Assembly: GCA_010356995.1 (NCBI GenBank)
Contig: ML996715.1
Location: forward strand, 7,648 to 44,343
DNA length: 36,696 nucleotides
Origin: Trichodelitschia bisporula
Taxonomy: Eukaryota; Ascomycota; Dothideomycetes; Phaeotrichales; Phaeotrichaceae
Direction: 5' to 3'
Below are positions 1 to 36,696 of this stretch, in pieces. The position numbers were made by a program, and so were the translations under genes. The notes below the pieces were generated by a model, which saw nothing but the letters and a program-made list of their open reading frames with translations, was not told the origin of the DNA and ran no database searches. The first letter of the stretch is position 1. Every line of letters begins with the position of its first letter.

Positions 1-1717
1 CTTTACGTCCAGCTTACAGATATCATGGACTCCAAAGACACGATGGCATGAAACCCTTCGGAAACCTTCTGCATCCATCCAAGCGCCTCAAGCCAGTGAA
101 GGAGATGCTCCTTCAGGAACTCATGAACTTCACCGTCATCGTTGAGCTGAGATCCACTCTTATGAAGATGCTGTATCCAGTAGAGGCATGCATACTGCTT
201 CTCAGGTTGGAGGGAGCCTTCAACCTTATGACTGTCGACCTCGGTCTTGAGTACTCCAGGCCGACCTATTCCAAGCATGTCCTGCGTGAGGAAGTCTGAC
301 ATGACCTGTATGCATTTCGTGGCAAGGGCTTGATGCGCTTGCTTTTCATCGACCCAGAAACCTGTATCTCCGCTTCTCTTCGAGTCGAGAAGGAAGTCAC
401 GGAATGAAGGGTGGTGTAAACGGAGTGGGTAACCTGGTTCCTTTGGAATGTCTAAAATGGCGTAAAGAACACCCAGTATCTGACTCACATCATCCTGTGG
501 GATGTTGAGCAGCCTGCTCAAGGACTGGGTGGAAAGTGGAGAGAGCAGGGTTACAATGCTTCCAAGAAGACCTTTGAGCTCAGATCGGACCTCATCTTTC
601 TCCTCGTCTGAATAGCGGGGAGAAGTGCAGTGGTTAAGGACCTCTGTGTAAATTTTGTTGAGTTGCTCTACTGGGGAGTCGACAGCAGTGCGACTTTGGT
701 TCAGGATCGTTTCCAGTCTCTTTGTAGCAATTCGCTTTAGCTTTCCGTCATGAATAAAGCGGCATGCGGTTGCTGCCCAGATAAACAGGCCACTTGCGTG
801 CTGAACAAGGCGATGAATGATTTCCTCGCCTGGCCAGCTAGCGTGAAGAGAATATTCGTGGGCAATGCATGCGAGTTGGTGCCGTAGAAAAGTGCGGATA
901 TCGTGGTCAACAATCGATGGTGGTATATTGTGGAGTACAAAATCCCGGTGTTCGTCTTCCGGAATTTTGATAGGAAGCCAAGGTCTGCTCGTCAAAAACA
1001 CTCGGAGCCGTGGCCTCTCCAACAACCGAGCTTCCGCCAACAGTTGCAGAATGATCCGTATGCTGTCCTCATTCTCGCACTCGTCGAGCGCGTCAACCAC
1101 CAGCATAAATGCAAAAGGGAATTGGTTGCCCTTGAGCTTCGACAATGGACCGAGGACAAGATGGCGCCACTGGTCGAGTAGAGACAGGTTTGCGATGTTG
1201 CTGCGCTTGGTGATAGCATCGCAGATGGTCGGCTTCAGAGCCTGCACGTTGTCTGCAAGTTGTACTGCGATGCTTGTCACAAACTTGCCGGCATGGCTAA
1301 CATCTCCGCCACCTCGAGAGAAGAAAAAGCTGGCTCCAAGAGATTCTTCCACGGAACACCTAGCGGCCACTGTTTGCGCCACCGTGGACTTGCCAGTACC
1401 AGCCAACCCACTCAGCCAGAAGATGCTTGGTGAGTTTTCTTCATTGACCCAGCTGTGTATCTCCTGGAGAAGGTCGACACGGGTGCCAGGAAGACAGGTA
1501 GACTCAAGTTCTCGTTGGCGTGCATTAAATGGCGCATCGGCAGCAAAAGGTAAGGCCTTGAGCCCGTTGTCATCTAGGCGACTAATTAGCCTCGGTTTAT
1601 AGCGAACAGTTACATATACTCACCGCTTCCAATACTCACAGGTCCGAATTGGCCGGTAAGAGCAATTGAACGGTTGGAGACAGACACGCCGCTGATGTTT
1701 TGAGTACTGCCAGACAT
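1..1717 (-). CDS. NACHT NLR with N-terminal amyloid-like motif exon (5' part; runs off left edge)
   Basis: STAND/NACHT ATPase of a fungal NOD-like receptor, a cytosolic sensor that oligomerises on ligand binding. Exon 1 (1624-1717) encodes only 31 residues with the segment GVSVSNRSIALTGQFG (residues 10-25); a 50-bp intron (1574-1623, donor GTGAGT, acceptor CCTAG) leads to exon 2 (18-1573). Exon 2 holds the family linker (PFNARQRE, then CLPGTRVDLL), Walker A GLAGTGKST (residues 87-95), Walker B with LVVDALDEC, FLTSRP, and the helical C-terminal half of NACHT (GLFIWAATACRF). The ATG at 1717 was chosen because it gives a coherent phase across the intron. The TAA near position 5 is not the end: a GTAAGC donor at 17 matches the place where the paralogue at 36457 splices, so repeats (WD40, ANK or TPR by family habit) probably follow outside the window. 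It is divergent from the gene at 2948, which ends in a matching motif. Domain assignment is firm; the signalling role of exon 1 is inferred. Confidence 0.88.
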
Positions 1718-2947
1718 GAGATTCGAAGCCGCGACGACGTAGGAAATTGCTGATATCAGGCTACTGCTCTATCATGGCAAATGTTGTCGAGCGCACGCGC
1801 GTTAATATCCAGGAGTGACCGTATATGCATCTCGGATCAAGACTGAGTTGAGCTAGGATATGTACAGCTTGTTGTGGTCTAATGAACCACCCTGCCGCCA
1901 TCGCTCAGCCAGAGAATACGCCACGACTCAGGCTGAGCCGAAGCGCAGCCCAGTAATCTCGCTTTACGCCCTGCCACCCCGCTCATTATGTGACTGCCAG
2001 TTGCTTTTACTGGACTACGGCAAGACCATTCAGCATGCATTCCACCAGCGCTCGCATAGCAGCGCGTCAGGATGCTTATGCGGGTTTCCTGCGCCTCAAT
2101 ATTGTCGGCGTACCCGAATAAGCTGTCGGCGTACTCGAATGAGCAGTCTTGGGCGGCGGACACTGGTGGTAAGTTGAGGTGGCACAAGGGCTTAAGGGAC
2201 AGAGAATGTGGATGGATGTTAGGGCGAAGCAAGCGACAATTTCTTTGATGTATTTAATCTAGGACAAGGCTTGATTATAAGATAAGAGACAAAGAGTCAA
2301 AATGAGAACAGCGCGAATCTAAGTTATAGGCCGTGAACGAAGCTGCATCGGACTTCGGCGTTGTCTAGCATCGGCTTCGGCATTTACCGTGCGTCGGCTT
2401 CGGCGTCGCCGCGCTAAGGCTGGCTGTCCGGGCGCATCCCCACTGAGCTGCTCGGCATGAGCCGTGACAATGGAGTTGGATGAGAGAGCAGAGCTGTGGA
2501 ACAAGTCTTGTTGGTTCCTTGGCACTCTGGCCCTATACTTGCCTGGCTCAAGCTGAAGGCCTGCCGACCCTTGGACCTTGCCGGGGTGAGTGCTCACATC
2601 CGGTGAAGTGAGCCAGATGCTAGGTTGACAACTGGTACGGCGAAGATGCCTTGCGACGGCTAACTGTGTGTTTCCTTACTTGGCAGTCTGTTGCCATCGC
2701 TGCCTGTCCCTAGCACGCTAAGCTAAATACGATGATTCGTTGCAGCCCGCAATATCTCCTCAGCTGAAGAGCCCTCCTCAGCCCTAAATACTACCCGTTG
2801 CCTCCCTCAACAGCCATCTTTTCCTTCCTTTGTGCAAGACTCCATTCGTCTATCGTCGCCTACTTGAACCTGCCTTGATGGTTTTCTTCTGTTTACTTTC
2901 AGCACGAGAGCACATACAACGACTCTTGAAGCCAACCCCCAGAACTC
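1718..2947. promoter_or_regulatory. Divergent intergenic region between NLR and its putative effector
   Basis: This 1.2-kb stretch lies between two divergently transcribed genes and must carry both promoters. No convincing coding frame was found. It holds a 21-bp tandem pair (2103-2123 and 2124-2144, unit TGTCGGCGTACYCGAATRAGC) and a degenerate GCATCGGCTTCGGC-type repeat around 2343-2405. The last 200 bp before the plus-strand ATG are pyrimidine-rich, with CTAAATAC near 2784, as is common upstream of fungal start codons. Confidence 0.45.
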
Positions 2948-3897
2948 ATGGATCCCTTGAGTATCGCTGCAAGCACTCTGGGCATTGCGCAGGTTGTCGT
3001 AATCAGCATCGTCAAACTCCATGATTTTATCAATGAACTCGCTGAAGCTGATGAAGAGCTAAAAAATATTGCTTCGAACATTGCGGGTATCCATCTCGCG
3101 TTGACCGCCCTGGGGGAACTCGACATTTCCACGGAAAGGACTCGGGCTGTTCTCAAGAAGGCTGGCGTCGCTGAAGCCGTGAGCAAGTGCGGCGCGCTAT
3201 GTGACAAATTCACCAAGAGCCTCGAACGGTGGACGAAACATTCCAGCGGGAACAAACTCTCCTTCAGAGATCGCTTATTAGTCGGCATGTGGCACAGCGA
3301 GAAAATCCGGACGTTCAAGATGCGGGTTCAGTCTTGCAAGGACACAGTTCATTTTGCCGTTTCATGTACCCAGCTGTAGGCGAGCTGTCAAATACCATGT
3401 TGGCAGACACACACTAACGCTAGAAAAGGATCATCTCACTTGACGATGAACATTCTTCTGAGGATCGTCGAAAGGAACTAGAGATACGAGCACGGAAGGT
3501 GAGGGAGGAAGTTAAAGAGCATGTCGATCTCAGCAAAACGCAGCAACTTGAAGCACAACAGCGCAAGAAAGAGTTGGAGAAAGAGTCCGACAGCGAAACA
3601 GAAGAAGCCTTCCAACTGCGAGAGTCCGCTATTGAAGAGGTTGAAAAGCAGTTACGTCTCCTCAGGGTCGATCAAGAGTCCTCTGAAGCAGTTCTCTCAC
3701 AGCTACCCTCCGAGTCAGTGGAACAGGAAATTCGCGATATCCGCACTGCCGAGAATTCGTGGGCTGCGGTAGGGTCGTCAGCGAGTGTTGTCGGAATTAC
3801 TCGTCAGCGAATTGAAGGGGTACATACGACGAACCAATCCGTTGCGGTTGTGGGGAGATTTGACGTGACTTCGATTCCTGGCCCCATGTCACGGTGA
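2948..3897 (+). CDS. PigL/SesA-like helical effector with C-terminal amyloid-like motif
   Basis: Predicted cytosolic partner of the adjacent NLR. It opens with MDPLSIAAS, the typical start of the fungal PigL_N/SesA-like N-terminal domain (helical, related by architecture to HeLo-type cell-death domains). A strongly charged, Glu/Lys-rich coiled coil follows (about residues 145-240), and the last 29 residues include GVHTTNQSVAVVGRFD (273-288). Two exons: 2948-3375 and 3429-3897 (GTAGGC donor, CACTAAC branch site, AAAAG acceptor), giving about 298 residues; an alternative intron 3359-3423 also keeps the frame. The C-terminal segment aligns ungapped with residues 7-29 of the divergent NLR (identities I, G, V, N, S, A, G, F, S, I). 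By analogy with HET-S/NWD2 and HELLP/SesB-type pairs it would be triggered by templated folding from the NLR. The domain call is good; the amyloid role is inference. Confidence 0.72.
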
Positions 3898-7764: not shown

Positions 7765-9037
7765 TTACCTGCGCTTTCTACGATGTACTTTCGCTGGTGG
7801 TAGCCTCGGGTCGGTGGCCTGTGGTCCGCTTTGCGTAAGTGCTGGTGTGGGAAGTGTGTTCTGCGTTTCGAGGCCCTGCGCTGCTCTGCGGGCTGCGATA
7901 TTGCGACGATTCAAATGTGCGGGTATCTGTACCTGTCGTGTCTGGCATCCAGAGTCGTGGTGTGGTGCTAAGCCAGCGCACCCCCTGCAAGACGCGAGCG
8001 GTTGGGCCCTTTGGGCCCCGTTGGCGGTTCGCTCACCTCCACTGGCAGCTCGCTCACCTCCACTGGCAGCTCGCTCACCTCCACTGGCAGCTCGCTCACC
8101 CTCACTGGCGGCTCGCTCACGTTCACAGGCAATGACGCCGAGAAGCTCCTTCGCATATGCCGCAGCAGCAAGGCCAGCATGTCTCTGCCACTCTTCATTT
8201 TTGTGCTCGTCGCAGTAATCCGAAATGCCCCTGATGACAAGACATGGAAAATTGTTCATCAAGCCAGCGGCTTCCGTTTCGAAGCAAAGGCAATCCCCTA
8301 TTCGTCCGAGCTCATCTCGGATTGTGGCGTCTTTAACAACCTCGTTGCCAGAAGCAATGGTTCCATAGTGAACAACTGGCCCCGGGTGACGGCGGTCGTG
8401 AGGTTCATGTTCGTTTGGAACTCCGTATCCGGATTCGACGTAACTCAGATCGGTTTCCAGTGTCCTCCTCACCCTTTCCGATATGATGGCAGGGTTCCCA
8501 ATGAGATGTATCTCCAGAAATCTCACTGCGTTTTGCAGGAGAGCTGGGGGAGCGTTCAAAGAACCAGTTTCCCTGAATTCATACCGGTACGCCTTGCCCA
8601 TATCGTACTGTCTGACGCCCCCATAGCCAGAATTCGGTGCGCTCACGACGACGTCGCCTAGCCGTATATCATGTGCAGGAGATGGAATGCCTCCTCCAAT
8701 GCCGACCATGAGACCGAATTTGATGTTCGGGAATGTCGCGAGCACTGAGGGATTAGCCTACCGGTATGCAAGTAAGAGGCCAAAACTAACTGTGCTGCGC
8801 CGCAACGGCCGCAGATGTTGTTCCCGCCTGAGAGCAGCACGTAATAGCCACGTTGTGATTTCCCGTCTGACCCCCGATGTGGCCCAAGAAGTACAAATTT
8901 TGATCTATCGGGTTTCTCTGCTCCGGCTTAAGGCCTGCATGTCGTACATCAAGCATCGCTACAGCAGCATATGCTTCGTGCGGTAAGGCAGCAACCCATG
9001 CGACCGTGTATTGGTCGCTATCCAATTGGGAGGGCAT
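7765..9037 (-). CDS. Stand-alone PNP_UDP-domain protein with heptad-repeat tail
   Basis: Nucleoside phosphorylase-like (PNP_UDP) domain of the type used as an N-terminal effector domain in fungal NLRs; related immune PNP domains act as ATP nucleosidases in other systems. Two exons: 8791-9037 and 7765-8744, with a 46-bp intron (8745-8790, GTTAGT...CAG) that restores phase. Landmarks: YTVAWVAALPHEAYAAVAML at the N-terminus, FGLMVGIGGG, DIRLGDVVVS, VHYGTIASGNEVVKDA, ETEAAGLMN and FPCLVIRGISDYCDEHKN near residue 290. After the domain comes a run of ERAASGG heptads and a basic Gln/Arg/Pro-rich tail, about 408 residues in all. No NACHT domain follows, unlike the NLR at 33730. The last codons (AGG TAA) overlap a perfect GTAAGT donor, so the true C-terminus may be spliced further left. 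The domain is certain; the activity is inferred from family. Confidence 0.85.
8029..8130 (-). repeat. 21-bp in-frame tandem repeat (ERAASGG heptads)
   Basis: Four to five copies of a 21-bp unit (plus-strand CTCGCTCACCTCCACTGGCAG), nearly identical to one another, lie inside the PNP coding region and encode ERAASGG repeats. Near-identity of the units implies recent expansion by slippage or unequal exchange. Confidence 0.85.
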
Positions 9038-13499: not shown

Positions 13500-14686
13500 C
13501 TATATCCTTCTTCTGCGAAACGCCCACCACGCCTCCCACGGCAACCGCCACCCCGGGCCTCTCAACCGGCCATCAAAAACATCGAAATCGACACGCTCCA
13601 ACCGCTCCAGCCACATCCGCGTCGGCACCGCACCCATCAGCACGCCAAAACCCGCTTCTACTTCACGGAGCGCCTTGCCACTCGGCACATCCGTCGCGGA
13701 TTGTACCTCATCGTACCCCGCCCGCTGCGCATCGCCCTCGTGCTCGAACGCGTGGCCTGCGCCCTGGCCCGCCAGGAGCGAGCGCAGCATTTCGCGGGCT
13801 GTGATGAGGTGGTCGTTGGCGCGGGTTGCGTCTTCGAAGACTGCGTCGCGGAGGCCGGGGGCTGAGGGGCCGGTGCGCAGGATGGTTTCTTCTTGTACGC
13901 TGTGCGCCGCCATGATGTCCAGCGGGAGGAGGACGGGGGGGTGGGGCGCGCTGCCCTGCGCGGTCCCGCCGGAGGGGGGAGGCGGGAAGCCGAGTAGCGG
14001 GAGGCTGCGCAGGACGGCGACTATGCCGGTTGCTTTGCCGATGTGGGAGGCGAGGTGGTCGGCTGTGATGGAGGAGAGGATGAGGGAGGAGAGGGGGAGG
14101 GAGGAGAGGGTTAGGTAGCTGAATGTTGAGTAAGTGTTTTCGGCGTAGGTTTCGAGGGCGGAGAGGGCGGGGTAGGGTCTGTTTCCGAGGTATTTTTCGC
14201 GTTCGGATATTATGCGGTGGAGCCAGGCGCGGGAGAGGCGTGAGCCCCCCCGGTGCGTTGTTGGAGGGAGGTGCTTACGGCGGCGAGGAGGAGGGGGATG
14301 GGGTGTTTTGGGGGGTTGCCGACGAGGGTGGCGGTCACGGAGTCGCGCCAGAATTGGAAACGCATGGCGCCGATGGTGGGTTGGGAGGTGGAGTCGGCGA
14401 TGCGGGCGGTTTCGAGGTTGAAGGCGCGGAGGGCGAGGTAGGCGTCCCGGGCTTGGGGGGGGATGAAGGTGTGCAGGATGTAGGAGGGGGAGTCTTGTCG
14501 TCTGGATTTGTTAGCTTTGAAGGGGAGAGCAGATGGACGTACTGGAGGAGTGTAAGGCAGTATTGTCGGGGCGTTGTCTATCTCTGCGGCGGAGGCGGCG
14601 GGGGAGGGAGTGGAGCTATATGCCCGGTGCAGACATGATGCCTTACAGCGACCGGGACGGGCGCGGCGGAGGAGGGTTGAGGACAT
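13500..14686 (-). CDS. NDUFAF6-like complex I assembly factor (squalene/phytoene synthase fold), frame disturbed
   Basis: Mitochondrial protein of the squalene/phytoene-synthase family needed for complex I assembly. The ATG at 14686 begins an Arg/Ser-rich presequence (MSSTLLRRARPGRC...HRAYSST). Exon 1 (14543-14686) reaches RQYCLTLLQ; a 41-bp intron (14502-14542, GTACGT, GCTAAC, CAG) leads to exon 2 (13500-14501) with SYILHTFIPPQARDAYLALR, FQFWRDSV, then after a frame change LSRAWLHRIISERE, ALETYAENTYSTFSYLTL, ATGIVAVLRSLPLL, RANDHLITAREMLRSL and the C-terminal WLERLERVDFDVFD...WWAFRRRRI. Length and end match the family. Two one-base frame changes are needed to read it as family members read: one base too many in a C run (~14563-14566) and one too few in a seven-G run (~14241-14247). 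Both are homopolymers, so assembly error is as likely as pseudogenisation. It is convergent with the carrier fragment. Confidence 0.78.
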
Positions 14687-17911: not shown

Positions 17912-19929
17912 TCATGACAGCAGCGCAAATTCTGAAACAACGTCCTTGAGCATGTTGTCGAGAACAACGCACGTGAAAAATCCGGGATCGAAAATCACGA
18001 ATAAGACGTTTGGACACGTCGCTAAATGAACATTAGAGATCCGGACAAATGACAGAGGGAAGGTTGAACTTACGCAAGGACTTTGCTGGCCGAGAAGTTC
18101 GGAAGTCGACCACGACCCACTCTCTAAAATTGAAAGAGGTGTAACGGCCTTCCCCGACAAACCGGTCGTAATGCTCCTGTAGTTGGGTCCCGTCCCGCAG
18201 CAATTCAATACCCCAATGGACCCCAGGGATCACAAAGTCGATTCGCTGCCCGCCTAATTCCTTGCTGGAAAACTCCGGGGTGGGAATGATGCGTGCTCTG
18301 GTGACCTTGTATATCGTGCGGTGGAGTTCGGCGCCATAGGCTGCTTCTGGAGTCTTGGATTCTCGTCGCAGAGCATTCCCACAAAACGACTTCAGGCCAG
18401 TCAAGACACACTCCCGTACGCTCTTGAATGGGAAAGGACCGGTGAGATGTGGGACAACGGTGATCGCGGCAAACCTGGCTAAGGTTAGCTATAATTCGTG
18501 CAAAACAGTATAATGGACGTACCAGCGATGAACTTCGGTCGGATAAGTATAGACTATGGAATCGCCGTCTTTCACAACGGCATGCAGGTAGCCCTTGACA
18601 TAGCACTTGCGAAGTGCTTCAGGATTTGTGTCCTCTAGCTGAGCGAACCCTTCTATCGCAACCTTGATGAGAACATTGCGGACATCGGGGTCCCGAAACG
18701 TGGAATGAGGAAATCCGCGGTATGCAGCACAGGATTTGATGACGTTTACGAGGCCATCCCTATTGAACAAGAAATGCTCAAGGGAAGCAGACTGAATTTC
18801 CTTTCCATTTCTGACGATAGTTTTGCAATGCTGGACCATTGAAGGCTGAAGTCAGCAACGCCCAACCGTACAGATTGCTAGGGAAAAGGATGAGACCCAC
18901 ATGGGATTCCAGGAAATTCTCAATCAGGGCAGTCGCAAGGCCAATGTGACCCTCAGAAAACTTGAACAGCATGTCTAGGGCCTCATTCGAGATTGATGCG
19001 GGTATTGCCGTAGTCTTCTTCATCCCCCAGCTCATGAACTCTTCTTGCGAGAAAAACATGCCCACGGAGACAAAAGCTGACGGACGTAGCCCGACGATGC
19101 AATTCTCGGGAAGTGTAAATGGAGTCAATGCACACTCGTCATTGCCAAGGTCCGCCGAACTGCCATAGCAACAGGCGAAGACAAACTTGATACTTTGTGG
19201 TCTTTTTTTGAAATTCTCCAAGACACCCTTGATAGCCTCGTTCCAAAAGGCTGCATCAGCGTAACTCGTCTGCCCTTCATCGAAAAGAATGTAGGCTGGA
19301 GTGCAAAGGACGTCTGTGTGAGCATCCGGCATTAGTTCCTTCAGCTGATCAAACCAGGGCTTCGTTGCCCCTTTAGGGTAACGGGAAAGAAGATGGACCT
19401 GATTGCCTTGGAGACGAAGGTAGTGATAGAGGAGGTCCATGACGCTGGTCTTTCCGGACGCAGGGGTGCCTCGAAGCTGAACGACACCGGTGCGTTCAAG
19501 AAGCGCGACCACAGTCTCCAGGAGAGTTGTTCGGGGCTCCAGGTGAAGGTATTTTGCGACTTCATTGGACGAGATATCGGGTGGAATGGTATTTCGCTCG
19601 CTCGCACCTCTCGCGATTGTGGCAAAGGATTCGTCTTGGGGCACTTCATTCTGGTTAGCTAGGCCGGGGAAGGATGAGTTGCTGTCCTCACCAACGTCAA
19701 TCCCCGAAGAGGGCGGTGCAGCAGCTGTAGTCGGCAGACTGGGCGTGTCGTGGATTGAGAATGCATGATCGCAAACTGTGCAGGCTGGATCACCGCCTGC
19801 GCCCACCGGTGCCGAAGCCTGCATGCAACTGCACGCCATCATTCCTTGCCTGAAGCAGCATGGTCCACGGAACACCATGATGGGTGGGCTGGAAGGGCAT
19901 GAAGAGAGAGGGCGCCGGAATATTTCCAT
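17912..19929 (-). CDS. Crinkler-like P-loop NTPase with C-terminal REase-type nuclease domain
   Basis: Member of the fungal CRN-like family in which a P-loop NTPase is joined to a restriction-endonuclease-fold domain; such proteins are thought to act as effectors or in inter-organism conflict, probably on nucleic acid. Four exons with consistent phases: 18901-19929, 18523-18845, 18074-18474 and 17912-18021 (introns of 55, 48 and 52 bp with GTRNGT or GTGGGT donors), 620 residues. Order: Cys/His cluster (C24, C25, C33, C35, C50, C53, H55, H60), low-complexity linker, Walker A GTPASGKT (154-161), Walker B YILFDEGQ (213-220), helical middle ending in YVKGYLHAVV and HRW, then the nuclease region with E500, RIDFVIPGVHWGIELLRDG (D530, E541) and the family C-terminus CPNVLFVIFDPGFF. 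Starts at 19929 or 19878 are both possible; the frame is open to 20091. It looks intact, unlike most neighbours. The Cys/His cluster may bind zinc. Confidence 0.82.
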
Positions 19930-21420
19930 GATGGATGATAGCGTCCCTAAATTTGGAGTTCTTGATCGCGACTGACGTGGGTGCAGGCAGTATTGATGAT
20001 GTGAGTTGCTAGGCCTACGTGTTAAGGTAAGGTTCGGTTGCTTAAGAGAGAGCTTCCGGCCTGTCAGGGGCGCACAAATCACTGGTTGCACAGCATTGGT
20101 TGTGGAATAACATTCATTGAAAGCTTGAAGGACTATGTAAGGGTTTCGCGGTGACCGGGGAGTAAGCGGCGAAGATCTCCATGAGCTACTTGCGTCAGTG
20201 GATAGCCCTATGATAGAGTCGCAAAGCTAACCTTGTCCTCACGAAGATGTGGAGTGTGGGGGAGCTGGGGGTGCTAGCGCAACAGGCCAATGCCAAGTCC
20301 TTACCCCTGCAAGTCCAACCGGGCTGGAATTGCAGGATCAGCCATCAAGCTTACCAAATCACGTGACCCACACAGGGCCTGTGGCGATTTGACATGGGAG
20401 AGATGGTATCCTCCCATGACACGGCCTTTGTTTATTCGCCTAGCACATGGAATTTCCTTCAATCAATAACACAGGCGTGTATCCTTGGACGCACGCAAAA
20501 AAAAAATCTATATCGACGCACAATTCGAATCCAAAGCTTCCAGCCAACCGATCATCACTTTGCCTTGATTGATACCACACGGAAGCAAGGCTATGATGGA
20601 CGGGCTCTCTGTACAGCCAGTGACGATCAGCCACGTTCCGACGTAGCCACGCAATTGAATCAAGCCACCGAATCCACTCACTCGGTGGGTATCGGCCCGA
20701 CCTTTAATCCGAGAGCCAGTACACTCCGCGGTCATGTCTTTCTCTGTCTCCCAGATGCCTCTGCCTCCCGGCGTAACGTTCGCTGACCTCAACGTATCGC
20801 TCGATGATGTACCTTCATACGCTACCGCAATTGCTGCTGCATCCTGCATACTGTGACATTGATAGCTGAAAGGGGATAAATCCGCCATTTCAGAAATCGC
20901 TCGCTTCCGCTCGCTCAGCAATCTCAAATTCAGCTTCAAACAACACCAAACATACTTTCAGCTTCCAGCGCCTCTCGCGGAGCTCCAAAGCTTCATCGCA
21001 TTCAGCAACGCATTGCTAGCCTTCAAAGCTTCCAGCAAACACAGGAACCCTTCGAAAGTACCGCGAACGTGCAGCTCCTCAGATCACCAAAGCTTCGCGC
21101 ATTCAAACAGCGCTAGATCTTGCTACGCTTCTACCATTCACCAGCGCTTCCGCGAACCCCCCAGACCTCGAAGAACCTTGCAAACCTTCGATAAAAAAGC
21201 TTCCTCCAGATCTTCTCCCTTCACCGAGTCACCTCAACGTCATACGTTCAGCGTCTTACGTCCTACGTCTTACATCATCAACAAGCGCAGAGCTACCACG
21301 CCTCATCACTCTGCGACTGGCTTGCCTCCGTCCTTTACCCACCCTCAGCCAGCCGTAGAGCCCCTACATCCCACTACCCCACTTCCCCATCCATATACCA
21401 CACCCTCCGTCACACGTGCC
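19930..21420. other. Intergenic region, Crinkler-like promoter and eIF4E 5' region
   Basis: Carries the promoter of the minus-strand gene. It includes TGTCAGGGGCGCACAAATCAC at ~20064 (similar to 16535), the TCCAACCGGGCTGG fragment at ~20310, the 46-bp repeat at 20691-20736, and from 20930 a stretch with repeated TTCAAAGCTTCCAGC-like words (to ~21180), then a CT-rich leader before the eIF4E ATG. No separate gene could be supported. Confidence 0.45.
20691..20736. repeat. Dispersed 46/47-bp repeat, copy B
   Basis: Partner of 6442-6488. On the minus strand both copies can be read as MTAECTGSRIK, in otherwise unrelated frames. Confidence 0.65.
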
Positions 21421-28310: not shown

Positions 28311-28457
28311 AAGATACTGGAAGTCAGACGTGCTGTATATAGTCCCTCATTCCCGACCTCATTCAGATGGGCGAGCTAGTCAGTCAGAGATCAATTGATA
28401 CACTGGTTTTGGCTCGAGCAGCAGCCACTGCTAGTTTCCACTACAAACCCTGAGACA
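28311..28457 (-). mobile_element. ~140-bp LTR-like repeat, copy B
   Basis: Reverse-complement partner of 11921-12063. It starts directly where the copia coding remnant ends, preceded by a CTCAGGG polypurine-like stretch as at a 3' LTR. Confidence 0.55.
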
Positions 28458-29495
28458 AACAGATACCCAGGTCAGACGAGAGAGGAGTGAGTCCGTGGTC
28501 TTTGAGGAAGAGGGCCAGGGTTTGATACCAGATCCCCGGTGACTGCTTGAGTCCGTAGAGGGCCTTCTGCAGCTTGCAGACGTTGTTGGTCCCGTCATGG
28601 AATTCTGGCGGCTGTTCGACATAGATCTCTTCGTCCACCGTGCCGTAGAGGAATGCCGTTTTGACGTCCACCTGCTCCACTTCCAGGTCGAGCGCAGCAG
28701 CGATGGCAAAGAGGGCCTTGTAGCTCATGGGCTTGACCACGCTGGCAAATGTCTCGTTGTAGTCGATTCCTCCTTGTTGCTCGAACCCCCGGACCACCCA
28801 TCGAGCCTTGTAACGCGACACTTCCCCGTCGGGACCACGCTTGAGCTTGTAAACCCATTTGCCACGCAGCACCCTGCGACCGGCTGGTAGCAGAACCAGC
28901 GTCCAAGTTTGGTTGTCGATGAGTGACTGGTGTTCGTCGTGCGTTGCCTCCTTCCATTTGAGCCAGAAGTAGTCTTGTCGGGCTTGCGCGAGGCTTTTCG
29001 ACTCGAACGGTTCAAGGTTGTTCAGAATGCGCATCGCAGTGCTGAGGAACCCGCACATAAGGGCAAAATGGGTGTTCCCCTCGGTATCGGAGGAGGATGG
29101 CAGATTCCCTACCCGTCTCGAGCGTCGAAGCTCGGCTGTTTCAACCGGGTCCCGATCCAGCCGCTCAGGCATGTGGACTCTGATGACGTCGTCTTCGGTG
29201 GGATCATCTAGTGGTGGGTCGTCCAAGGGTTGATTGAGCGGGAGGGCGCTGGCTAGGGTAGCCGAATGAAATGGAGTGCCACTTGGCAAAGGGTATGCTG
29301 GCGGATCGGTGTCAGCTTCCCCGTCTCCCCCACCATTTGCAAGTGGAACGCCTCCATACTGAAGTGATGGAGCTCCCCCATGCTGAGGCGCGGTACGGAT
29401 GGAGGCTCTGTCGCTTCCTCGGGCGAAACGGTGGGCTGTTCAAGTCCTTCGTGGTGATAGCGCTTTCCGTGAAGACCACGTTCGGGGTGCGCATG
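28441..29495 (-). mobile_element. Ty1/copia retrotransposon fossil (reverse transcriptase part)
   Basis: A 282-residue open stretch (28441-29289) holds the start of a copia reverse transcriptase: WKEATHDEHQSLIDNQTWTL, GKWVYKLKRGPDGEVSRYKA, RYKARWVVRGFEQQGGIDYN, QVDVKTAFLYGTVDEEIYVE and ALYGLKQSPGIWYQ. An upstream stretch with RNVVFTES-like sequence belongs to the region before RT. Gag, protease, most of integrase, the RT catalytic YVDD region and RNase H are absent. The element is internally deleted and broken; its two flanks (28311-28457 and 29496-29815) are unlike each other, so it is chimeric. Moderately old, as another LTR has inserted into its right LTR. Confidence 0.85.
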
Positions 29496-32243: not shown

Positions 32244-33729
32244 TGTAAAAGGTTTGGTGGCTTTGCCGAAGTGAGGTGAGGTTCGAGGTTCATAGCAGGC
32301 AGGGTATTCAAGTCTAGGGGAAAGCTGTAGGCAGACATGGCAGACTCAATGCTATGACTATTTCAACGCCACATAAAGGATGCAGCTCGAGACGGAATTA
32401 TTGAACCACTGAAGCAACTTTGGAAAGTGAGCGTTTCACATCCTCTAGTCATCGATTTGGTCCTGCAGAGGCCTGTCTTTGTGTCGTACGGATGTACAGC
32501 ACAGTTGATTGGCTTTTCACCCACGTAAGTACGAGGTACAGTACAACGTTACTTCACACTCACGCGGCACCGTACTGATGCTTACTGTTAAAATGAAGTG
32601 TGAACTTGACTGAGTTGCTTGATCGACTAGCAGTGGGAAGTGAGCTTACTATATACCTCGCCAGGAGACAACCCCGTCTCCAGGCTCCATTCCAGCCACC
32701 CCAGGTTGCCGCCACAAATTCAACACTTACTGACAGCCGGAGTGGTGGGCGGGACGACCTGAAAACCGAGTTTAGACATTTATCTGTCGCTTGATGTCGT
32801 CGCGTTGTTGTCGCGCACATGTCAGTGAGGAAGCGGCTTCTGCAGATCATTTTTCTTGTTCCCTCGTAGGCGCTTCTCCCCCGATACGAGGCCACAAAAG
32901 CTGGTGCAGCCTACTCCGCATGGACGGGAGGTACAGCACAGTCAAGCACCTCACGCAAGAAAATCGCCTTACTGTTTCGTACCATGGTAGTTTAAGCACG
33001 AACCACACGACTCTTCGAGCTCCGCCGGCATCTGCCTTCGGGAGGGGTGCAATAGTTCTAGTGTCCAAATCCGCAGTGGCCAACCGATGATGGGATAACT
33101 TATTAGCTTATGAGCAGGCCTCGTCGACGCCCAACCTCAGTGTACTCCGTACAACGGAGCAGACAATGCCTTTGCCGGCTGGCCATCTGCCCTTCCATCC
33201 ATACGTCGTACTGTGTAAATCTAAGCCTCTGTTATTGGTAGAAGTGTCGCCCTGGAGTATGCATGTAGACTGAAGAGGCGTGTTGGCATGTTAGGCCTGC
33301 GCCTTTGAAAGAGGAGTTGAGACTGCGCCTTTGAAGGGGAGGGGTGGCTCCCATTCCCTTTCTGTTCATTCTCCGCTCAGCCAACTTCGAAACGCACGCT
33401 GCACGCTTCACGCATCATTCGGGCCTTTCTTCTTGGCTGGTTGTACAACATGTCCCGCTATTATCGGATCAGAAAGCCACATCATCGGTACGAATGCATT
33501 TCTCTAATCACTGCCTCCTCTAATTCGCAATAGCCCAAAACCAACTAGGCTAGGCAAAGCCAGGAGCCTCCTCGTTAACAAATTTATTAAGAGCCGTCGG
33601 CCCACTATCACCGTTCTTCACAATATCGCTTCGCCGTCTCCGTCGAAAGTGCGCAGCCCTGTGGGTGGCGTGAAGGAGGGGGCAAGGAGCAAAAGACTCA
33701 TCATTAGGGAGGGAGTCTCGCCTCCCAGC
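32244..33729. other. Intergenic region upstream of the PNP-NLR
   Basis: Contains the solo LTR 32586-32725 and a 26-bp tandem pair (CTGCGCCTTTGAA words at 33297 and 33323). No gene recognised. The coding frame of the NLR is open upstream of its ATG to ~33649, but without another ATG. Confidence 0.45.
32586..32725 (-). mobile_element. Solo LTR, 140 bp, with 5-bp target duplication
   Basis: Reverse-orientation copy of the solo LTR at 29560-29700 (roughly 85-90 percent identical by eye), flanked by CTTAC at 32581-32585 and 32726-32730. A 5-bp duplication and TGTTG...AACA ends fit Ty1/copia integration followed by LTR-LTR recombination. Confidence 0.92.
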
Positions 33730-36696
33730 ATGGATAGACAGCAACTAGACAAGAAGGTAGGTTCTCAGTTCGTATGGCCCACCTCGTGGTCTACAGAAAT
33801 CGAATGCAAACCCACTGACAATGTGGAGCTCTCCCATACTGACACGGCTGCTGTTCGGAGCCTACTGCGCCAATTGAAGCATTCGGAATACACAATAGGA
33901 TGGATATGCGCACTCCCTATCGAACTCGCGGTTGCCCGAGAGATGCTGGATGAGGAGCACCAGGATCTCCCTCAGAGTCCACCAGATGACAATCTCTACC
34001 GACTTGGCCGCATTGGCGAACACAATACTGTCATTGTGGGCTTTCCGGCCGGATTCACGGGCTCCTCCCAGGCGGCCCGGGTGGCCAGTCAAATGCAGAC
34101 GACTTTCAAGTCGATTCGGTTTGGCCTTATGGTGGGCATTGGAGGTGGTGTGCCGAGCCGCAGATATGATATTCGACTCGGAGATGTTGTCGTGAGTCAA
34201 CCATCGAATGGCCATGGCGGAATAATCCAGTACGACTTTGGCAAAACAAGACCGGACGGGTTTGAGCGGACTGGTTTTTTGAATTCACCTCCAACCGCCT
34301 TACTGAGCGCTGTAGCGAGTCTGAAGGCCAATCGCGACTTAGAAAAAAAATTCCTACGCCACCTTTCGAAACCGACCCGTCAACCTTGGTTTGCACAGAA
34401 TGCCGGACCAGACGTTTTATATTGCGCTAACTACAACCATGACCGACCTGGTACTGATGACTGTCGGGAGTGCAAAACAGAGCATGTCGAACAGCGACAG
34501 CCACGTGAACATTTCATCGTCCATTACGGCACCATAGCGTCCGGAAATCAAGTCATGCGAGATGCTACGACAAGAGATAATGTCAGCAAGGACCTTGGAG
34601 GTGTACTCTGCTTTGAGATGGAGGCGGCGGGGCTTATGAACCATTTCCCGTGCCTTGTTGTGCGGGGCATTTGCGACTATGCGGACTCGCATAAGAATAA
34701 GAACTGGCAACCGTTTGCGGCAGGGCTAGCAGCTGCGTATGCAAAAGAGGTACTTTTGTTGATGCCGGCAGCCGAAGTCGAGACAGGGTCATCTGCGGTT
34801 GAGTTGATGAACCAAAATCTTGGTAAGTAGCCTTCACCTTTTCTTAGCTGGTAGAGGTCATAGGGAAGATAGGGTTAACCGCAGTCGTTAGAATTCAATA
34901 AGGTTCTTGGAAACATTCCCACGGCTGTAGAAGCGCCTTTCAATGCACGCAAACGAGAACACGACACTGCCTGCCTCCCTGATACCCGTGTCGCACTTCT
35001 CAAGCAGATATATGAATGGCGTGATGGCATGGACTCCCCAAATATATTTTGGCTGAGCGGGTTGGCCGGCTATGGCAAGTCTACGGTTGCGCGAACAGTG
35101 GCTGCCAGGTGTTTCAAGAAAGGCCTTAGCGCCAGTTTCTTCTTCACCAAAGGCGGCGGAGATGTTGGCCACGCCGGCATGTTTGTTACAAGCATCGCAG
35201 TGCAGCTTGCAAATAATGTGCCGGATCTAAAGCCGGTCATTTGCGATGCCATCGCCAAGCACAGCAACATCGCAAGCCTGTCTCTACGCGAGCAGTGGGG
35301 CCGTCTTGTTCTCGCTCCTTTATCGCTGTTTGGAACCGATCAATCCACTCCAAAATTTCTCCTGATTGTCGACGCTCTTGACGAGTGCACAGATGAGAGC
35401 GATGTGCGGATCATTCTTCAGCTTTTCGCCGAACTTCGAGGATCGCACCAAACCAGGCTCCGAGTATTTCTGACGAGCCGACCCGAAGCTCATATCCGGG
35501 ATGAGATTCAGCATATACCAGAAGTGGAACACTACGACTTTGAACTACATGGCATTCAACAGTCGGTTGTCGAACATGATATCCGCGTTTTCTTAGGGCA
35601 CGAGCTTCGCCGTATTTCCTGCAAGTACTTTGACCGCACTAACTGGCCAAGCGAGCAGATCATCAATCGTCTTGTTCAGAACGCAAGTGGCTTGTTCATC
35701 TGGGCTGCTACGGCATGCCGCTTTATTAGTGAAGGGAAACAATTCGCCCCCGACAGACTGGATTCGATCTTGGACCAAGGCCATACCGAGGGGAACACTC
35801 CGGAGAAGCAGCTCAATGATATCTATTCTACTGTTCTCGAGCAAAGCATTCCTGCAGGCTTTTCGGGAAAAGAGAAGGAAAAGCTGCGGTCTATGCTGAA
35901 ATCTCAACTTGGAAGCATTGTAACCTTATTCTCTCCACTTTCCATCCAGTCCTTGAGCAACTTAATGGAAACTCGCGACGACAAAGTAAGCCAGACACTG
36001 CACGATCTCCACGCCATTTTCGACATTCCAAAAGAGCCAAATAGCGCACTCCGTTTACACCACCCTTCATTTCGGGACTTTCTTCTGGATAAAAAAAGAA
36101 GCGGTAATGCCAAGTTCTGTGTTGACGAGAAGCAAGCACATCAGTCTCTTTCTGCGCACTGCATGCGACTTATGTCCAAATCCCTTAAGCAAGACTTGCT
36201 GGGAATCGGCCGTCCGGGTGCGCCTGCAACAGAAATCGAGAACGATCGACTGGAGAGATGTCTCCCTGCTGAAGTACAATACGCATGCCTCTACTGGATC
36301 CAGCATGCTCAGAAGGGTGGCTCCCAGCTTAGAGATGATGACCAAGTCCATCGGTTTCTAAAGGAGCATCTTCTTCATTGGCTTGAGGCGCTTGGATGGA
36401 TGCAGAAGGTTTCCGAAGGGTTTCATGCCATCGTGTCTCTGGAGTCCATGATATCTGTAAGCTGGACGTAAAGCAGAGTGGGGATACTTGGCTGATACTT
36501 GGTTTAGGCGCAGAGGTGTCCGCGATTATCGGAGTTTGTTCATGACATGAAACGATTTGTCCTCTACCACCGGTCAGCCATCGAACTAGCCCCCTTACAG
36601 ACATATTGCAGTGCGCTGGTATTTTCCCCGGCAGCAAGTCTTGTAAAAAGGCAGTTTCAAAGCCAAATGCCTCTGTGGATGCCCGGACTGCCGCAG
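33730..36696 (+). CDS. PNP_UDP-NACHT NLR (runs off right edge)
   Basis: Fungal NLR with a nucleoside phosphorylase-like effector domain before the NACHT ATPase. Exon 1 (33730-34822) starts at the first in-frame ATG, in good context (A at -3, G at +4), and carries YTIGWICALPIELAVAREML, FGLMVGIGGGVPSRRYDIRL, VHYGTIASGNQVMRDAT, FEMEAAGLMNHFPCLVVRGI and CDYADSHKN. A 69-bp intron (34823-34891, GTAAGT...GTTAG) restores phase into exon 2 (34892-36456): linker PFNARKREHDTACLPDTRVA, Walker A GLAGYGKST (about residues 421-429), Walker B LLIVDALDEC, FLTSRPEAH, GLFIWAATACRF and LRLHHPSFRDFLLD. A further intron (36457-36507 or -36513, GTAAGC, CTGAT branch site) leads to exon 3, open to the window end, reading EFVHDMKRFVLYHRSAIELA and LQTYCSALVFSPAASLVKRQ, the conserved segment that usually precedes WD40 repeats. 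It is a paralogue of the NLR at 1-1717. Confidence 0.9.

Follow-up and report, generated by a model that had tools for sequence, protein, structure and literature searches.

The window analysed here, the whole 36,696-nucleotide stretch of Trichodelitschia bisporula DNA, contains two divergent neighbouring genes whose ATGs are separated by ~1.2 kb: an effector on the forward strand and an NLR on the reverse strand. The effector coding sequence (+, 2948-3375 joined to 3429-3897) yields a 298 aa product with 100% identity to the deposited T. bisporula protein EJ06DRAFT_485117 (P0002). Exon 1 (2948..3375) encodes a HeLo-like (PF17111) domain and a hydrophobic stretch, found by Pfam and hydropathy respectively; a 53 bp phase 2 intron (3376..3428) was placed by splice-pair enumeration and gives a spliced product identical to P0002; and exon 2 (3429..3897, stop at 3895-3897) encodes a long helical charged region followed by a repeat region. 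A splice acceptor at 3423 was rejected as out of frame, the enumeration pointing to 3428 and matching the deposited protein. The NLR (-) begins with an exon coding residues 1-31 (1624..1717), placed by enumeration and by its match to EJ06DRAFT_270558 (P0013); a 50 bp intron (1574..1623), again enumerated and giving a product identical to P0013; and a second exon (18..1573) carrying NPHP3_N (PF24883, E 2.2e-29) and NACHT (PF05729, 29.8 bits) domains. This model has the same length as P0013 (554 aa) and 100% identity to it over the scored region, so that both gene models behind the pair described in the earlier note equal deposited T. bisporula proteins. The deposited NLR reading frame continues past 18 to a stop at 3-5; a 3' intron starting at 17 likely marks the true end of exon 2, and 4 of 6 paralogue loci likewise read into a stop and then resume.

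The effector matches PF17111 at 64.3 bits (cut-off 27.2, E 1.3e-17), and its N-terminus is strongly hydrophobic at residues 4-22, with a hydropathy maximum of 2.15 at residue 4. It had been put forward as a 'PigL-like' protein with a long coiled coil, a description we replace: PF17111 is HeLo-like and is listed as an HRAM partner (PMC9815663), and the effector is therefore not an unusual partner. NCBIfam gave no match for the effector and only weak P-loop matches for the NLR. The C-terminal repeats of NLR paralogues are WD40-like as judged by eye, and by analogy with these paralogues and with homologues the T. bisporula NLR would carry a WD40-like sensor.

The effector C-terminus and NLR exon 1 share a motif, as first noticed from the DNA, and here they align ungapped with 10 identities in 25 columns and a BLOSUM62 score of 56; adjacent divergent effector and NLR genes with the motif at the effector C-terminus and the NLR N-terminus have, as was also recognised then, the layout of amyloid signalling. 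Three controls of 20,000 shuffles each, run with an approximate effector join of 299 residues, never reached 56: the maximum was 42 when both sequences were shuffled (Gumbel p ~1.7e-6), 49 when only the effector was, and 54 when exon 1 and the last 40 effector residues were. Exon 1 was also scored against every stop-to-stop ORF of 40 aa or more in the window, 550 in all; the effector exon came top (56) after exon 1 itself, the next scoring 34. That the two termini are unrelated and alike merely by chance or composition draws something from that tightest control, whose maximum came within two points of the observed score, but with 0/20,000 in each of the three shuffles and both ends conserved in other genera its probability is negligible.

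Inspection against the published HRAM numbering (PMC4518210) resolves the shared region into three 21-residue units, two in the effector, 6 residues apart, and one in the NLR. The first effector repeat, r1 (3718..3780, +; residues 240-260, VEQEIRDIRTAENSWAAVGSS), fits the HRAM position pattern and is conserved in P0003-P0008; a six-residue loop (3781..3798, +), defined by the spacing of the two pattern matches, separates it from r2 (3799..3861, +; residues 267-287, TRQRIEGVHTTNQSVAVVGRF), the copy noticed earlier, which fits the same pattern and is conserved in P0003-P0007. The NLR repeat, r0 (1646..1708, -; residues 4-24, STQNISGVSVSNRSIALTGQF), likewise fits and has the ungapped score of 56 with the effector. 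The likeness of r2 and r0 in the earlier note thus stands, the weaker r1, starting 27 residues upstream of r2, having been overlooked there. All three repeats have Q3, I5, V/I8, T/V10, A16, V/T18 and G19. A strict pattern (21-residue unit, G19, hydrophobic 5, 8, 10, 16 and 18, with T allowed at 10 and also at 18, which r0 needs) was drawn up after the sequences had been seen. With that qualification, the six-frame translation of the window (71,029 residues) contains it 6 times, and r0, r1 and r2 make up half of these occurrences. In 88 collected proteins (59,295 residues), 20 of its 21 matches fall at effector C-termini (13) or at NLR residue 4 (7), the remaining one being at residue 170 of P0033, and two separate matches were found in 0/20,000 shuffled effector tails.

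Because r1 and r2 score only 28 against each other (7/21 identical) and a coiled-coil 21-mer from effector residue 214 scores 30 with r1, the case for r1 rests on HRAM positions and conservation and not on raw similarity. Across six effectors the invariant columns are HRAM positions 3, 5, 10, 14, 16, 18 and 19 in both repeats, and position 4 is acidic in r1 and R in r2 in 6/6 rows. In T. bisporula, r1 and r2 bear opposite charges at positions 2, 4 and 6, r0 has one charged residue, and this charge pattern agrees with the HRAM trends described in PMC4518210. Position 15 is W (r1), V (r2) and I (r0), so that the preferred K/R is absent, and in the five full-length effector homologues it is K or R in r1 and not in r2.

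Both repeats are kept in all five full-length effector homologues (6/6 counting T. bisporula). There is very little chance that this is an ageing or inactive pair which has inherited the motif and lost signalling: the pair is known here as gene models, but neither reading frame is interrupted, each gene has its model among the deposited proteins, and the HRAM positions persist in the repeats although identity over the remainder of the effector is down to 46-52%. Of the NLR relatives returned, 7/77, including Alternaria and Pyrenophora, have an N-terminal repeat by the strict pattern. The earlier note would have counted homologues lacking the motif against its proposal, and on the NLR side this partly applies: 70 of the 77 NLRs do lack r0 by that pattern, most of them having been retrieved by similarity confined to the linker and NACHT. 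The effectors keep their repeats. Effector and r0-bearing NLR are both present in Alternaria and Pyrenophora; the homologue search found r0 NLRs and no effector in Eremomyces, and an effector and no r0 NLR in Camillea, Amniculicola and Bipolaris. Repeat scores in the three genera with both partners are mixed. T. bisporula r0 is closest to its own r2 (51, vs 15 for r1); r0 of Alternaria and Pyrenophora scores 29 and 30 against T. bisporula r2 and 14 against its own r2, leaning to r1 (23 and 30, vs 14 for r2). Judged by these scores, cognate matching is not general.

The earlier note suggested an undescribed motif class. Set against the published HRAM description the class is probably not new, and a genuinely new class, sharing a beta-arch pattern with HRAM through convergence alone, is improbable. 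The lack of K/R at position 15 in T. bisporula and the weak similarity of r1 to r2 speak for a separate class, the comparison being with HRAM as described in print; K/R at position 15 is described, however, as a preference and not a fixed feature (PMC4518210), and the repeat number, length, spacing, positions 3, 5, 8, 10, 16, 18 and 19, charges and effector domain all fit the description of HRAM, including a loop of 6 residues that falls within the published 6-18 (PMC4518210). The Pfam HET-s family gave no match at E up to 10 in six effector tails (two weak unrelated families were returned), which would also favour a new class, but since only 38 of 155 HRAM proteins are reported to match that signature (PMC4518210) a missing match is expected. 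The 'TTN-S-V..VVG echo' of HET-s proposed earlier lies in another register from the one used here, in which the G of VVG is HRAM position 19. Q3 is given as the mark of HRAM2 (PMC4518210), and r0, r1 and r2 all have Q3 with no Q at 16 or 18 (A16, V/T18), so that the motif, matched to the published description of HRAM2, appears HRAM2-like. Of other motifs, PUASM (FxGxGxQxxGxGxF, of a PNP_UDP effector) had no match, the effector domain being PF17111, and sigma is described as ~40 residues with a threefold repetition of two submotifs (PMC5485727). PDB searches gave 30 chance-level matches for the effector sequence (best E 0.11, mostly antibody chains), no chain at E 10 for the tail profile and none at E 1 for the effector profile; a literature search for Trichodelitschia with NLR found nothing.

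The pair is of the HELLF/FNT1 and HET-S/NWD2 kind. HELLF of Podospora anserina (HRAM5) is described as a HeLo-like effector of similar size (277 aa) whose tail holds two HRAM repeats and whose gene adjoins that of an NLR (PMC7889193, PMC7885112); it differs in having Q16, where the pair here has A16 and Q3, FNT1 has NB-ARC and TPRs whereas the T. bisporula NLR has NACHT and putative WD40-like repeats, and HELLF has been tested by experiment (PMC7889193) while the T. bisporula pair is known from sequence. HET-S/NWD2 of the same species (HRAM1) has r0 in a NACHT NLR and r1 and r2 in the adjoining effector, all as 21-residue units, but with a HeLo instead of a HeLo-like domain and N3 instead of Q3. 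HRAM2 shares Q3 and is listed in Cochliobolus, Curvularia, Corynespora and Aaosphaeria among others (PMC4518210 Table 1), but its r0 are described as tending to group with r1 (PMC4518210), unlike T. bisporula r0, nearest r2. HELLP/PNT1 likewise pairs a HeLo-like effector with an adjacent NLR sharing an amyloid motif, but that is the PP motif (NxGxQxGxN, core GxQxG), absent from both T. bisporula ends and without a match in the protein ends examined. Three published cognate systems have the same layout. Structures are reported for HRAM1 and HRAM5.

With the gene models, the domains, and the spacing and conservation of the three repeats established, we put at roughly 0.8 the probability that the pair is a two-gene regulated-cell-death module of the HRAM kind, HRAM2-like by Q3. 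By analogy with HET-S/NWD2 and HELLF/FNT1, a ligand sensed by the C-terminal repeats would cause the NACHT receptor to oligomerise, the N-terminal r0 motifs would stack into a beta-solenoid amyloid, and this seed could convert effector r1-r2 to the same fold, with two rungs per molecule; the change would free the HeLo-like killer domain, whose hydrophobic N-terminal helix may then damage the fungus's own membrane and bring about cell death. It is very unlikely that the motif is instead an ordinary non-amyloid contact, or that r0 and r2 share the role of a membrane or docking peptide. The amyloid state rests on analogy and AlphaFold models are uninformative here (effector mean pLDDT 52.7 with the tail <50 and low-confidence helices at 154-194 and 201-234, not used as support; tail alone 58.1, with most of r1 helical and r2 a hairpin), but the motif is homotypic and repeated, spaces its glycine and hydrophobic residues as a beta-solenoid rung does, and stands where characterised relatives have a prion-forming motif.

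A module of the HRAM kind at this locus gives the HRAM superfamily a Q3-type pair in which both gene models are confirmed by deposited proteins. Upstream regions of paralogous NLRs in the same genome carry PNP_UDP words instead (17 of the 20 regions read), and since these close relatives thus have PNP_UDP in cis, cis-effector and trans-amyloid wiring could be compared on one receptor family. More speculatively, and in our view unlikely, there may be a separate Q3-type HRAM sub-branch in Dothideomycetes on an NLR lineage otherwise with cis PNP_UDP, in which one receptor body would have exchanged its fused enzyme for trans amyloid signalling. Marks of such a sub-branch would be an uncharged position 15 in r0 and r2, and an r0 that tracks r2 in Trichodelitschia and r1 in Pleosporales.

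The effector gene (CDS 2948-3375 and 3429-3897, + strand, separated by a 53 bp intron) encodes a 298 residue product identical to EJ06DRAFT_485117 of T. bisporula, a fungus placed in the Phaeotrichales (Dothideomycetes), and the divergent focal NLR gene (- strand, start at 1717, exon 1 ending at 1624, a 50 bp intron, exon 2 from 1573) encodes a product matching the deposited EJ06DRAFT_270558 (554 aa). The earlier note had proposed that these two divergent genes carry a common terminal motif, and this was confirmed: NLR exon 1 aligns with the effector without gaps over 25 columns with 10 identities and a score of 56, which was reached in none of 20,000 trials when both sequences were shuffled (maximum 42, Gumbel p ~1.7e-6), when the effector alone was shuffled (maximum 49), or when shuffling was confined to exon 1 and the final 40 residues of the effector (maximum 54). 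When 550 window ORFs are ranked by their score with exon 1, the effector exon stands directly behind exon 1 itself, and the following ORF scores 34. The deposited C-terminal end of EJ06DRAFT_270558 is probably an intron read-through, because the four paralogue loci readable at this position (L014, L015, L016, L018; six NLR-body loci inspected) likewise run into a stop, after which coding resumes; translated onward, three of the four enter apparent WD40 repeats, as judged by eye. The deposited ends of the focal NLR (window 3-17) and of its paralogue P0022 have a common tail, ...SMISVSWT, that looks like intron read-through.

According to PMC4518210, the HET-s-related amyloid motif (HRAM) is a 21 residue unit. 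Every copy has G19, positions 5, 8, 10, 16 and 18 are hydrophobic (10 is sometimes T), K/R is preferred at 15, and position 3 depends on the subtype (N in HRAM1, Q in HRAM2, H in HRAM3), with Q at 18 in HRAM4 and at 16 in HRAM5; effectors carry two copies, separated in 154 of 155 by a loop of 6-18 residues, and NLRs carry one at the N-terminus. In this register the common motif corresponds to TRQRIEGVHTTNQSVAVVGRF in the effector (r2, residues 267-287) and STQNISGVSVSNRSIALTGQF in the NLR (r0, residues 4-24), and the effector holds a further repeat that the earlier note overlooked, VEQEIRDIRTAENSWAAVGSS (r1, residues 240-260), separated from r2 by a loop of 6 residues. Q3, I5, A16 and G19 are common to all three; K/R at position 15 is absent from the T. 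bisporula repeats. This fit leaves the suggestion of an undescribed class of amyloid-signalling motif unsupported. The sequences support reading the two genes as an effector/NLR signalling pair, and the pair probably belongs to an already known kind of system, that of the HRAMs.

Our search pattern followed the PMC4518210 rules, with T additionally permitted at position 18, and was composed after the sequences were known, so its counts describe specificity and are not a blind test. Six-frame translation of the window (71,029 residues) gives 6 matches, of which r0, r1 and r2 make up three, and 88 proteins (59,295 residues) give 21: two in each of six full-length effectors, one in P0008, one in each of seven NLRs (at residue 4), and one in P0033 (at residue 170). 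Two separate matches appeared in none of 20,000 shuffled effector tails (at least one in 49), and one match in 17 of 20,000 shuffled NLR starts.

Because raw BLOSUM scores of r1 are low (28 against r2, with 7/21 identical; 30 against an unrelated coiled-coil 21-mer at effector residue 214; 15 against r0), its identification as a repeat rests on HRAM positions and on conservation in sequence alignment: positions 3, 5, 10, 14, 16, 18 and 19 are invariant in both repeats across six effector tails. Charges at positions 2, 4 and 6 are opposite between T. bisporula r1 and r2, position 4 being D/E in r1 and R in r2 in 6/6 rows, and r0 has one charged residue in each of three species scored, patterns that agree with trends described in PMC4518210. 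T. bisporula r0 scores 51 against its own r2 and 27-36 against four others, P0006 and P0008 being excluded. Such cognate matching is not general, since the r0 repeats of Alternaria and Pyrenophora score lower with their own r2 (14 each) than with that of T. bisporula (29 and 30, respectively); against their own r1 they score 23 and 30.

At least 11 proteins, own record included, were among the matches listed for the effector. Both repeats are kept in P0003-P0007 (Camillea, Amniculicola, Alternaria, P0006, Pyrenophora); P0008 (Bipolaris) has r1 and a gene model that stops short of r2, and P0009-P0012 are metagenome frames ending with the first exon and hence uninformative on repeats. Two NLR searches listed at least 77 distinct proteins, seven of which have a strict r0 pattern (T. 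bisporula's own gene, two from Alternaria alternata, one from A. tenuissima, one from Pyrenophora, two from Eremomyces); P0031 has an r0 with S at position 18. Both partners occur in Trichodelitschia, Alternaria and Pyrenophora, a genus-level statement that outside Trichodelitschia implies neither the same strain nor gene spacing. Among the matches listed there was no Eremomyces effector and no r0 NLR of Camillea, Amniculicola or Bipolaris. Seven NLRs with the same body type (P0015, P0016, P0034, P0035, P0036, P0044, P0055) have a second conserved stretch at residues ~6-35 (e.g. SLHIHGTSATNGGQSFAGLNLGTINYA in P0036), which in most aligns by eye with the r0 of P0014 at positions 5, 7, 10, 12, 15, 18 and 19, with L at 3; it is possibly an HRAM-like variant with no known partner. 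The short N-terminus of another NLR, P0021, contains IQIGVVNTKGRAEVHIGN (residues ~7-26), including IQIG, which we take to resemble the RHIM/PP core; the PP pattern has no match in that N-terminus.

Effector exon 1 matches PF17111 (64.3 bits, cut-off 27.2), a domain named HeLo-like and listed with HRAM in PMC9815663, and residues 4-22 are strongly hydrophobic, in agreement with the membrane helix described for HET-S. By analogy with NWD2/HET-S and HELLF/FNT1, the NLR would oligomerise, its r0 units would form a solenoid, this solenoid would template r1-r2 of the effector, and the killer domain would be released. Predicted structures speak neither for nor against such a mechanism: the effector model has a mean pLDDT of 52.7 and an unordered tail, and the tail modelled alone (58.1) shows a mostly helical r1 and a hairpin at r2.

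In the 25.65 Mb genome the r0 peptide found only itself, a weak test in which one candidate was scored; the effector recovered both of its own exons plus two weak matches (E 0.22 and 1.1), and PF17111 one further match, under cut-off. The focal NLR body has 30 matches. Upstream regions of 20 were read for PNP_UDP signature words drawn from sequences examined in this analysis, and these words occur in 17 (absent at L034, L039 and L041). Near its right end the window holds a second NPHP3_N/NACHT NLR (34879-36468, + strand, 64% identity to the focal NLR), which is likewise preceded by a PNP_UDP_1 ORF (E 2.4e-8; together 33508-36468). For these reasons the focal NLR seems to be one member, wired to a separate HeLo-like effector via HRAM, of a family whose enzyme domain is mostly in cis. 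The HRAM pattern matches 8 times in 243,190 six-frame residues of paralogue upstream regions, about the window background rate, and the match closest to an NLR (L040) falls inside a PNP_UDP stretch.

Elsewhere in the window, all on the - strand, are a PNP_UDP_1-like ORF (7768-8757; 24.9 bits, slightly under the 25.1 cut-off) with tandem DNA repeats seen by eye at ~8040-8130, an ORF with an nSTAND3 match under threshold (18781-20226; 22.1 vs 27.2 bits), a retroelement-derived RVT_2 reverse-transcriptase ORF (28444-29439; E 1.5e-43), and an SQS_PSY (squalene/phytoene synthase family) ORF (13503-14510; E 2.3e-21).
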